A stretch of DNA of 64,000 bases, from positions 124,001 to 188,000 of the forward strand of contig LNDU01000043.1 in the NCBI GenBank assembly GCA_001464735.1, given 5' to 3'. Positions 44,014-49,711 of the stretch are shown here, in pieces. The notes beneath the pieces were generated by a model. It did not search any database. It worked only from the letters and a program-made list of their open reading frames with translations, and had not been told where the DNA came from. Both the position numbers and the translations under genes were made by a program. Numbering within the stretch: position 1 is the stretch's first letter; each line of letters starts with the position of its first letter. The DNA comes from Nitrospira sp. Ga0074138 (GTDB lineage Bacteria > Nitrospirota > Nitrospiria > Nitrospirales > Nitrospiraceae).

Positions 44014-45519
44014 ATGACAACCGTCACTGAACAGATCCCTTTACACGAACAAGTCCGATCGTTTGTCGGCGCACCTCGCAAGATGCTGATCGGTGGTCGA
44101 TGGCTCGACGCCACGTCGAGCAAAACGTTTGCCACCTATAACCCTGCCACCGGCGACATCCTCGCTCAGGTGGCAGAAGGGGATCGTGCAGACGTGAACC
44201 GAGCCGTCACCGCAGCGCGGATAGCCTTCGAGAGCGGCCCCTGGCGTAGGCTCACCGCCTCTGAGCGTGGCCGGCTGGTCTGGAAACTGGCTGACTTGAT
44301 GGAATCCCATGCGGAAGAATTCGCTCAACTTGAGTCACTGGACAATGGAAAGCCGGTCGGCGTGGCCCGGGTCGCAGATGTACCGCTAGCCATAGACCTG
44401 TTTCGGTACATGGCAGGGTGGGCGACAAAAATCGAAGGCAACACGATCCCCATCTCAGTACCCTACACACCAGGCACCCAGTACCTTGCCTATACGTTGC
44501 GCGAGCCAGTGGGTGTGGTGGCTCAGATCATCCCCTGGAACTTTCCGCTGCTGATGGCGGCGTGGAAGCTCGGGCCAGCCCTGGCCGCAGGCTGTACCGT
44601 GGTCTTGAAGCCGGCGGAGCAGACGCCGCTGTCGGCGTTGCGTCTTGGTGAACTGATCTGTGAAGCGGGATTCCCAGACGGCGTCGTAAACATTGTGCCT
44701 GGGTTCGGCGAGACCGCTGGGGCGGCACTAGCAGCCCACCCGGATGTCGATAAAGTAGCCTTCACCGGCTCCACGGAGGTGGGAAAGCTCATCCTTGGCG
44801 CGGCGGCAGGAAATCTAAAAAAAGTGTCATTAGAGTTAGGAGGAAAGTCGCCCAACATTGTGTGTAAAGACGCTGACGTGGAAGCCTGTATCCCTGGAGT
44901 GGCCGGCGCGATTTTTTTCAACCAGGGCCAATGTTGTTGCGCTGGTTCTCGCCTGTTCGTCGAAAAGAGTATCTTCGACAAGGTCGTTGAAGGTGTGGCG
45001 GCAGACGCGAAGAAGATCAAGGTCGGGCCTGGTATGGATCCTGCGACTCAAATGGGTCCACTCGTCTCGGACGAACAACAGCGGCGCGTGCTCGGCTACC
45101 TCGAGGCAGGACTCTCGGAGGGTGCCAAGGCCGTGGTGGGGGGACGCAAACTCGGAAGCAAGGGCTACTTTGTGGAGCCGACAGTCCTCGTCGACACCAA
45201 GCAAGGGATGAAAGTCATGCAGGAGGAAATCTTCGGCCCGGTCGTCTGTGCCGTGCCATTTACCGATCTCGACGAGGTGCTTCCCATGGCCAACGACTCT
45301 ATCTACGGATTAGCGGCGGCAGTGTGGACCCGCGACATCGGGAAGGCCCACCGCATCGCAGCCGAGCTGCGGGCCGGCTCGGTGTGGATCAACTGCTACA
45401 ACATCTTTGACGCCGCACTGCCGTTCGGCGGCTACAAACAATCGGGCTGGGGTCGGGAGATGGGCCACGACGCATTGGAGCTCTATACTGAGGTAAAGGC
45501 CGTCACCGTGCGGTTGTGA
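44014..45519 (+). CDS. NAD(P)-dependent aldehyde dehydrogenase
   Basis: 501 residues, full length for the family. [20 protein letters not shown] is the cofactor-binding segment with the catalytic Asn, FTGSTEVGK the glycine motif, [11 protein letters not shown] the general-base Glu, and [16 protein letters not shown] the catalytic Cys, flanked here by two more cysteines. [13 protein letters not shown] is the C-terminal Glu-Ile-Phe motif. GAGGAGG at 44001-44007 has proper spacing to the ATG at 44014; the ATG at 44008 is too close. It oxidises aldehydes to acids; substrate unknown. Confidence 0.94.
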
Positions 45520-45937
45520 CGCAGTGAAACACGTGCGACTCCGCGCGCCTCATGTCCGTTGACTCGTAACGGACGATACGACTCGGCGTTCGGGTTGTGG
45601 TGCGGACTGTCAGGTGTGATGAAAAGGTGCGGCGAACCGGACACCTCCCCGCCACATCGAGCAGACGCGTTCGATTTGGTGCAGACAGCTTCCCCTGGAG
45701 TTCGATCTCGGACTCAAAGGCGACCGTCTCTCGATGGCTACGGTCCAGCATTACTCTCATCGTCATGCCAGTCAGCACTGCCTCAAGCAAGCCATGAGGA
45801 CGAAAGCCCGACTCACTGCCTCCCTTATCTCGCGTGATATCCGAGAGAAGAACGTGCGTTCCGTTCGTCAGTTGAGTCTGATACCGAGCCGGTTCACTTG
45901 TCGCCTCGATGATCTTAGAACCTCTATGCTTACACGC
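45520..45937. other. Intergenic region after the aldehyde dehydrogenase
   Basis: 418 bp between convergent genes. GTCCGTT-gactcgt-AACGGAC (45554-45574), 35 bases past the stop, is a 7-bp hairpin that may act as a terminator, although the T-tract is missing. Open frames here lack ribosome binding sites and recognisable peptides. Confidence 0.4.
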
Positions 45938-46531
45938 TCATAGCGACACTCCACCGATCTTTTCGGCTTCATAGTAATTGTTCTCCCCTTCATCGACATG
46001 CGTGCGGATCACGCGAAGTCCATTACGCTCGAGAGCGCGAGTGTACGCGATTCGACCGAGCGACCAACAGTCGAGACCAGTGGTGACATCCTGCCAGGTT
46101 CCTGTTTCGACAGGTGCCGTGAAGAGAAAATGTCCTCGCGGCTCGAGAATCTGCGATACACGATGGATGAAGGCCAGCTGCTCATCCTCGCGTAGAAAAG
46201 ACACGAGGCCGATCGAGATGACCGCCTCGAATGTCCGCCCGAAGTAGTCACTGTCCAAAGCCGACGCGCATTGCGTGGGAATCGTGGGGAAACGTAGTCG
46301 AAATTGTCTCAGCAATGTGGGAGATGTATCGATCGCCCATACCGCGAGTCCAGAGTCCACAAGGACCTGCGTAATGGGATACCCTCCACCACAGGCGATT
46401 TCGACGACGGCACTACCAGAAGGTAGAGATCTCGCCCAACTCTGAACAATCTCGACTCCCACACGGGATCGGTCTCGAACGTCAAGATACTTCTGTGCCT
46501 GCGCTTCATAGAAACGGGCCGCATCCATCAT
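45938..46531 (-). CDS. Class I SAM-dependent methyltransferase
   Basis: 197 residues. AVVEIACGGGYPITQVLVDSG is motif I, WAIDTSPTLLRQFRLRF motif II, and AVISIGLVSFLREDEQLAFI with ILEPRGHFLFTAPVE the following motifs of a Rossmann methyltransferase. The fold fits small-molecule methyltransferases, and the substrate is not evident. The frame starts with tandem ATGs at 46531. It is convergent with the aldehyde dehydrogenase and divergent from the broken GNAT gene. Confidence 0.85.
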   Translation of the reverse strand: MMDAARFYEAQAQKYLDVRDRSRVGVEIVQSWARSLPSGSAVVEIACGGGYPITQVLVDSGLAVWAIDTSPTLLRQFRLRFPTIPTQCASALDSDYFGRTFEAVISIGLVSFLREDEQLAFIHRVSQILEPRGHFLFTAPVETGTWQDVTTGLDCWSLGRIAYTRALERNGLRVIRTHVDEGENNYYEAEKIGGVSL

Positions 46532-46755: not shown

Positions 46756-47238
46756 ATGGAGGACACGGTGGGTATCAATATTGCTCGCGCTGAAATTCAC
46801 GACGCGGATACTATTGCCACAATGGTGGGTGAACTCTTGCATGACATCATGGCGGCGGTGAATGACAAGGTCTTTGGGTTTGATCATGCTGACACTGTGG
46901 GGCGCGCTTGTGCGTGGATGAAGTCAGGTCTGTCCACCGTCCTGCTTGCGAAACTAGACTCCAAGCCGGTTGGATTCCTTTCTCTGTATGAGTGCTATGC
47001 CCTGTACACCAGAGGTGTCTACGGAACGATCCCGGAGTTCTATGTCCGATCGCCACATCGTTCGCAAGGGATTGGATCCGCACTCCTCGCAGAAGCTAAA
47101 CAGATTGGTCAGACACGAGGATGAAAACGTCTCGAAGTGGCAACACCTCCTTTGCCACAATTCGATCGAACCCTGAGCTTCTATCAACGGAACGGGTTTA
47201 GTATCTCAGGGGGACGGAAGTTAAAACTGACGTTGTGA
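46756..47238 (+). pseudogene. GNAT acetyltransferase interrupted by an in-frame TGA
   Basis: The frame from ATG 46756 encodes a GNAT domain: RAEIHDADTIATMVGELLHD at the start, GFLSLYECYALYTRGVYGTI in the middle, and the acetyl-CoA loop FYVRSPHRSQGIGSALLAEA. A TGA at 47122-47124 follows QTRG, where GNATs commonly have Trp (GW-K-R-L). The same frame continues without change as KRLEVATPPLPQFDRTL and FYQRNGFSISGGRKLKLTL to a second TGA at 47236-47238, restoring a normal C-terminus. The final stop overlaps the next start as TGATG. A TGG-to-TGA nonsense change, readthrough, or a sequencing error would all explain this. Confidence 0.75.
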
Positions 47239-47645
47239 TGAAGCCCGTCGTTCAACTGGAACCAATCGGATGTGGGATCGCCAGTGTCGCGGCTCTCGCC
47301 GGTGTGAGCTACACAGCCGCAAAGCGAGTTGCGAATCGGATGGGCATCTCTGCAACGGACAGCCGATTGTGGTCCGAGACAACGTATGTATGTCGACTCC
47401 TGACACACTATCGGCTTCAACCATCGGCACGACCAACGCCGTTTGCCTCCTGGGATGCACTCCCAGATCGAGCCCTCTTAGCCATCAAGTGGCATCGTAT
47501 AAGGGGGCGGGCATTTTGACATTGGGTTATCTTCGTCCGAGATGCGAGTGGAACCTACGTACTCGATTCGAAGAAGACCTTGAAGCATCATGTGCGAAAG
47601 GATTTCTGGTGTATGAAGCCTCGGTGGTTTATTGAGACTCGTTGA
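47238..47645 (+). pseudogene. Papain-like/C39-like cysteine peptidase interrupted by an in-frame TGA
   Basis: MKPVVQLEPIGCGIASVAALAGVSY matches C39-like peptidases with the catalytic Cys in GCGIAS (here 93 residues before the stop). A TGA at 47517-47519 follows IRGRAF. The same frame continues HWVIFVRDASGTYVLDSKK and ends KPRWFIETR at 47645. In relatives the pattern is F-W-H-W-V, so the TGA replaces Trp just before the catalytic His and the later Asp. The short product would lack the active-site half. The start overlaps the GNAT stop as TGATG, so the two genes were coupled. Confidence 0.7.
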
Positions 47646-48327: not shown

Positions 48328-48909
48328 TCAAAACAGCGGGTGATGTGGGGCGGATGAGAAGGGAGCGCCAGCCGGCACCTCGCCGGCATTGCCCAGAAAC
48401 CGCCAGGCATCACCTTCTTTCACCAGATAATGGACTTCACGAAACCAACTGTCTAGTGTGAGTCGCTTTCCCGTGCGTTCGTCGGTGCCGTACAATCCTC
48501 CCGTGCAGGTCACTTCCACACGAACTTCATTGTTCACCTGCGTGACCTTGATATCGGAAAATAAATGAAGGGATTCCACAGCCCGATAATGCTCGAACAC
48601 CTCTCCCCATACCCGACGTACATCGCCCGCTTTCAATCCATGATAGTCGTAGGTTGAGGCATAAAACCGCATCAGCTCATCCATATCTTCTTTTCCCAGT
48701 GCCGCTTCCGCCCGCTCGAACGCCGCAAGCAGCCCTTTCACGACAGGATGACGCAGCAGACCGCTTTGCCCGGTGACCTTCTTGCCCTCGACCTGCAACA
48801 CCGTCTCCGGCAAGACCTGCACCTTGGCGGACACCACCTCCACCCCCAACACCAAGCTCAAGACCAGACCAAGACCAATCCGGACATTCACCTTGCCATA
48901 TCGCCGCAT
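48328..48909 (-). CDS. Exported NTF2/SnoaL-like domain protein
   Basis: 193 residues. GGAGG lies five bases before the ATG at 48909; longer frames lack this. The first 28 residues form a signal peptide (IGLGLVLSLVLGVEVVSAKV). The rest has the NTF2-like pattern: a helical start LLAAFERAEAALGKEDMDEL, FYASTYDYHGLKAGD, and the C-terminal curved sheet WFREVHYLVKEGDAWRFLG. Proteins of this type bind small hydrophobic ligands or act as scaffolds; no catalytic residues are evident. A ferritin-like gene lies upstream on the same strand. Confidence 0.75.
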   Translation of the reverse strand: MRRYGKVNVRIGLGLVLSLVLGVEVVSAKVQVLPETVLQVEGKKVTGQSGLLRHPVVKGLLAAFERAEAALGKEDMDELMRFYASTYDYHGLKAGDVRRVWGEVFEHYRAVESLHLFSDIKVTQVNNEVRVEVTCTGGLYGTDERTGKRLTLDSWFREVHYLVKEGDAWRFLGNAGEVPAGAPFSSAPHHPLF

Positions 48910-49000
48910 CGGCACCTCCATCAACGAAACAAATCGCCCGCCATGCGATAAGGCAAACAATGTTGTCTGCCTGAGTATCTTCCCCGGCTTGTTTGAAGGC

Positions 49001-49456
49001 TTAGGAGCGAAATGGCTGAACATCACCTGACTTACGCAGCATCTTGTTCACCTCATCAAGGTGCAGTTCTTCACCCACGATCATTTCTCGTGCAAATTCT
49101 TCCAACAGCACGGACTTTCCTTCGGAGATCTTTAGCAAATCGTAATAGGCCGCGATGGCACCCTTTTCGTGCTCCAAGCTCTCTCGCAGAATATCCCCCA
49201 CGTCGTGCTTCTCGGTTTCCAAGAGCGTTCCAATCTTCAGCGATGGGTGACCACCAAGCAAGGTAACCAGTTCCCCGGCTTTATGCGCATGGGTAAGGCT
49301 CTCGTCAGCATTACTCTTCAACCACGACACAATAGGAATGCGATTATAGCCGTAGATCATGAGTGAGTAATGCGTATAGCGTACGACTCCCGCTAGTTCG
49401 TGCTCCATAATCCGGTTGAGAATTTCGACCGCTCGTTGTGTGTCTTGATCGTTCAT
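49001..49456 (-). CDS. Ferritin-like/bacterioferritin-type protein
   Basis: 151 residues in a four-helix bundle. Di-iron ligands are visible in order: Glu in MEHELAGVVRYTHYSL, E-x-x-H in DESLTHAHKAGEL, Glu in SLEHEKGAIAAYYDLL and E-x-x-H in GEELHLDEVNKML. GGAGG lies six bases before the ATG at 49456. It probably stores or oxidises iron, in keeping with the VIT1 gene elsewhere in the window. The haem-binding Met of true bacterioferritin is not clearly identified, so a general ferritin-like call is safer. Confidence 0.85.
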   Translation of the reverse strand: MNDQDTQRAVEILNRIMEHELAGVVRYTHYSLMIYGYNRIPIVSWLKSNADESLTHAHKAGELVTLLGGHPSLKIGTLLETEKHDVGDILRESLEHEKGAIAAYYDLLKISEGKSVLLEEFAREMIVGEELHLDEVNKMLRKSGDVQPFRS

Positions 49457-49711
49457 CAGATGCCTCCAATTACGCACCACCGTCTCGCCTGAGGAAGCGC
49501 GAAGGGTACTGCGCCTGTGATGTTAACCAAAGCCGCCCGCCGTATCACGACAATTCGCTTCGCTTGATGAAAGTCAGTGTAGTGACCCTCTGTGCATCCA
49601 TCTCATCGCTATCCCTAGCGACACCTAAGACGCTGATAGAGCGCGCACAGCCGCCGGCCGCTCTGCCGAACGACCACACGTCTAGCTCTGCTGAAATAAC
49701 ATTGCCTCGAA

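Follow-up and report, generated by a model that had tools for sequence, protein, structure and literature searches.

Probable pseudogenisation of a coupled GNAT and C39-like peptidase gene pair by two TGG-to-TGA changes in a Nitrospira genome

Introduction

Two overlapping genes of Nitrospira sp. Ga0074138, one for a GNAT-family acetyltransferase and one for a C39-like peptidase, are each interrupted by a TGA at a position where tryptophan would be expected. Are these stops read as Trp, or is the pair broken? A sequence-only reading of the 64,000-nucleotide stretch of contig that contains the pair (hereafter the window) had listed four options: local pseudogenisation, stop readthrough, DNA from a source using UGA for Trp, and sequence error. 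We describe the pair, its relatives and the selection acting on it, and weigh these options.

The gene pair and its internal stops

The host assembly is a metagenome-assembled genome of 4.1 Mb in 66 contigs, approximately 95% complete. Features of the pair are given in Table 1; their coordinates, the overlap of the two genes and the presence of exactly one in-frame TGA in each, as first read from the sequence, were all borne out. Both stops lie well inside conserved domains, at codon 123 of 160 (GNAT) and codon 94 of 135 (peptidase), the latter immediately preceding the codon for the putative catalytic His95. The remaining Trp codons of both genes in this genome are still TGG.

Table 1. Features of the gene pair, in window coordinates
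Feature	Position	Strand	Remark
GNAT-family N-acetyltransferase, probable pseudogene	46756..47238	+	161 codons with stop; broken at codon 123
Internal TGA in GNAT gene	47122..47124	+	TGG (Trp) in all aligned relatives
TGATG overlap, GNAT stop and peptidase start	47236..47240	+	
C39-like cysteine peptidase, probable pseudogene	47238..47645	+	136 codons with stop; broken at codon 94
Internal TGA in peptidase gene	47517..47519	+	nearly invariant Trp codon in relatives

A further open frame of 121 codons (window 47270-47635, plus strand) overlaps the peptidase gene in another frame. It is open in the congener G050 too, and is probably due to chance, being absent from the list of frames of at least 90 aa for the congener G041.

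Identity of the two proteins

GNAT. Read through its stop, the first frame matches the Pfam model Acetyltransf_1 (E 3.9e-12; 46.9 bits against a cut-off of 20.7), and the protein is a GNAT acetyltransferase.

Peptidase. A fold model was made from an intact relative (mean pLDDT 78.6). Its top structural matches are C39 peptidase domains, from ComA and PCAT1 PEP (Z 9-10, only modestly above the level of common arrangements; rmsd 3.5-4), the best Foldseek hit has an E of 3.8e-3, and C39 membership is likely. The family differs from ComA and PCAT1 in consisting of stand-alone proteins of 135 aa, encoded beside a GNAT gene and having no ABC transporter part. In sequence it is too distant for a convincing match to the Pfam C39 model, whose best E is just 0.016, in two of 34 members. 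Cys12, His95 and Asp110 are conserved among relatives, and from this conservation and the fold we assign them as a putative catalytic triad. The window peptidase had no significant hit to a Pfam or PADLOC family, none to PHROGs at E 0.01 and no PDB chain by sequence. A plasmid search returned three distant Pseudomonas records only, and no GNAT is annotated beside the best of these.

The ancestral codons

The search for relatives of both proteins covered 147 family genomes and 79 from the genus. The position of the GNAT stop is Trp, encoded by TGG, in every aligned relative. So is that of the peptidase stop, with the sole exception of L040, which has TGC (Cys); in the same copy the conserved Cys12 is replaced by Asn, and its surroundings gave no GNAT match. 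Intact pairs, syntenic with the window and with matching flanks and TGG at both sites, are present in the closest relatives, G050 (93% protein identity) and G041 (86-88%). Both TGA codons descend from TGG, as the sequence-only reading had proposed from its expectation of Trp at these places. It had also suggested looking for the same TGAs in sister strains, and none of the other aligned relatives carries them.

These codons bear directly on the idea that the DNA came from an organism or element in which UGA means Trp. The TGAs do stand at Trp positions, but TGG is used there by the syntenic congener with 93% identical proteins and by all close relatives found, and the other Trp codons of the two genes are TGG. 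A donor of this kind is refuted by the syntenic relatives, and we give it negligible probability.

UGA in this genome

TGA ends 26 of the 45 long ORFs in the window and UGA is the commonest stop. The RF2 gene prfB is present in the genome. Scanning for tRNAs found 39, among them one tRNA-Trp, with anticodon CCA. No suppressor tRNA with a UCA anticodon was among the 39 in this approximately 95% complete genome, although tRNA-Sec could escape the tRNA model and a tRNA gene lying in the missing 5% may have been overlooked. These findings support the exclusion of genome-wide recoding, which had already been dismissed from the use of TGA as a stop in the window. In a reported stop-to-Trp reassignment of UGA (PMC13092985), UGA likewise stands in place of Trp codons; here, in contrast, UGA is the commonest stop, RF2 is kept and the anticodon stem of tRNA-Trp, as read from its sequence, has five pairs. 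Selenocysteine insertion or other programmed recoding would account for an in-frame UGA after which the frame continues. It is extremely improbable, as relatives have Trp rather than Cys at the stops and the tRNA scan, with the reservation just given for tRNA-Sec, found no UCA anticodon.

Leaky reading of UGA by the ordinary tRNA-Trp(CCA) deserves separate attention. It would yield a reduced amount of full-length functional protein, with selection having tolerated these two stops only. Both stops are at Trp codons, and in Escherichia coli Trp is the main residue inserted when TGA is read through, at rates that can be as high as percent levels (PMC11126739). Bacterial in-frame stops that remain under purifying selection are reported to be widespread (PMC7918605). 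The sole Trp tRNA of this genome has U11-A24, the state created in E. coli by the Hirsh suppressor mutation G24A (PMC13092985). A tRNA-Trp(CCA) with a four-pair anticodon stem is reported to read UGA (PMC13092985); against this, the stem here can, by reading the sequence, form all five pairs, with U27-A43 at the top. Nor was an excess of TGG-to-TGA changes found in gene-like alignments of the 221-kb contig with syntenic G041. Internal stops in that comparison are of mixed types, many near start codons, and the latter are probably start-site artefacts. Further points against leaky reading come from selection, below.

The coincidence of two identical stops

The paired change had been called unusual. 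We modelled chance as one random nonsense mutation per gene. TGG-to-TGA would then be the change in both genes in 1.4% of cases with a kappa of 2.6; a stronger bias toward transitions and from GC to AT raises this to as much as 2.7%. An identical change in both, whatever its type, would arise in 7-11%. The paired TGG-to-TGA change, at 1-3%, is a mild coincidence, noticed after the fact, and no special mechanism is needed for it. Given the Trp-inserting readthrough known from E. coli, stops at Trp codons are the mildest available, and survival could be slightly biased toward them.

Loss of constraint on the branch of this genome

Codon model. A nine-taxon tree was used, with the two TGA codons masked. 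Omega is 3.1 on the window genome's own branch, against 0.20 elsewhere in the family. The own-branch value differs from the background (p = 2.2e-5) but does not depart significantly from 1 (p = 0.14). With only two silent changes on this short branch, omega is broadly estimated there, and raised dN/dS is a general tendency of short branches.

Direct counting. With the stops excluded, the pair shows 12 nonsynonymous and 2 synonymous changes (N:S 12:2) on its own branch; two codons with two adjacent base changes are here counted as two each, and counting them once gives 10:2 and leaves the reading unchanged. The ratio on the G041 side is 28:43 (Fisher p 0.002 against 12:2). Five neighbouring genes have 54:137 on the same branch as the pair (p 3e-5) and are still under purifying selection. 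Own-branch changes fall on nearly invariant residues in both the GNAT (Y60S, E86R, T129A) and the peptidase (T10I, V98I). The earlier statement that there is no other damage needs qualifying: this copy has no frameshift or deletion, but some 12 further missense changes stand against two silent ones, several at nearly invariant residues.

Constraint may have lapsed before the stops arose. In the sister G050, still TGG at both sites, the GNAT also shows an N:S of 4:0, although these changes are few; one of them is G153R, at a position that is Gly in almost every relative. Separately, the peptidase gene has nine silent differences on its G050 side, most of them in codons 10-21 (window 47238-47300, compared with L091 1203-1265), a clustering such as a short tract of recombination would produce.

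Readthrough. For a functional gene with an in-frame stop, dN/dS clearly below 1 would be expected on the stop-bearing lineage, and this was not found. The genes described by Belinky et al. 2021 (PMC7918605) resemble this pair in that the homologous frame continues past the stop; they differ in keeping dN/dS below 1 and in having stops that species share, whereas in this pair dN/dS is not below 1 and the stops occur in no other species sampled. With purifying selection gone on this branch and nearly invariant residues mutated, in addition to the five-pair stem and the lack of a TGG-to-TGA excess over the contig, leaky reading is unsupported and unlikely. It is very unlikely that UGA is read by the organism's own tRNA-Trp at a low but useful rate, making the pair a naturally down-tuned operon that still yields full-length, Trp-containing proteins. 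Regulated readthrough is without support.

Sequence error. Errors inflate the number of internal-stop pseudogenes in assemblies (PMC11017572), and an error at one or both sites might be suspected in a metagenome-assembled genome of many contigs. Yet a pair of like substitutions separated by 395 bases, together with some 12 others, would need a local error rate of about 1.8%, while the gene at 49001-49480 has just 2 own-branch changes in 159 codons. The loss of constraint was moreover computed with the stops masked. We regard error as very unlikely.

Repeated decay of the pair in relatives

The pair is broken independently in congeners. The GNAT gene is frameshifted in G099, G135 and G174, and the peptidase gene in G062 and G121; in G121 no GNAT match is left. 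No peptidase match was found in G096 and G158, both with an intact GNAT gene. The peptidase of G102 has Asn at the putative catalytic Cys position, and a copy in G095 has an internal TAG. The window genome has a second peptidase copy of its own (G000:C34:91331-91669; L153 811-1217, minus strand), whose sequence passes from one frame to another near codon 20; its neighbourhood on contig C34 gave no GNAT match. Such frequent independent loss marks the pair as a dispensable accessory module.

Possible recombination and a deletion near the pair

In G041, a deletion fuses the aldehyde dehydrogenase and methyltransferase genes that adjoin the pair (L092 5333-5531; window 45034-46287). Both fused genes are truncated there; the window copies are intact. 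Downstream, the patch at window 48429-48728, within the gene at 48328-49026, shares only 70-87% identity with both G050 and G041, whereas those two reach up to 98% identity with each other there. This contrast suggests local recombination in the window genome.

Conclusions

Local pseudogenisation is strongly favoured among the four options, because purifying selection has been lost on this branch and the pair has decayed independently in relatives. Very probably the coupled GNAT and C39-like peptidase pair became non-functional in this Nitrospira lineage by this ordinary route. Purifying selection on a translationally coupled accessory pair would lapse first, missense changes would then build up in both genes, and two ordinary G-to-A nonsense mutations would each turn a TGG into TGA; we infer this order of events. 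Both products should be inactive, since truncation would remove the C-terminal quarter of the GNAT and, from the peptidase, the putative catalytic His95 and Asp110. Three points weigh against pseudogenisation: the copy has substitutions alone, with no frameshift or deletion; both stops are the same Trp change, exactly what a leak of UGA to Trp would repair; and its omega is a broad estimate from a short branch.

Ordinary bacterial nonsense pseudogenes of accessory genes likewise have single-transition stops, a loss of purifying selection, orthologues that remain intact at the corresponding locus of close relatives, and independent decay elsewhere. The difference here is that two adjacent genes are hit by the same codon change. 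For annotation, both frames should be marked as pseudogenes, and the importance of the locus beyond that is small. It is also a useful worked case of how paired TGG-to-TGA stops, for all their resemblance to recoding, can be resolved once selection is tested on the branch in question and relatives are scanned for independent decay. In the Nitrospiraceae the pair is widespread but often broken, an uncharacterised accessory module.
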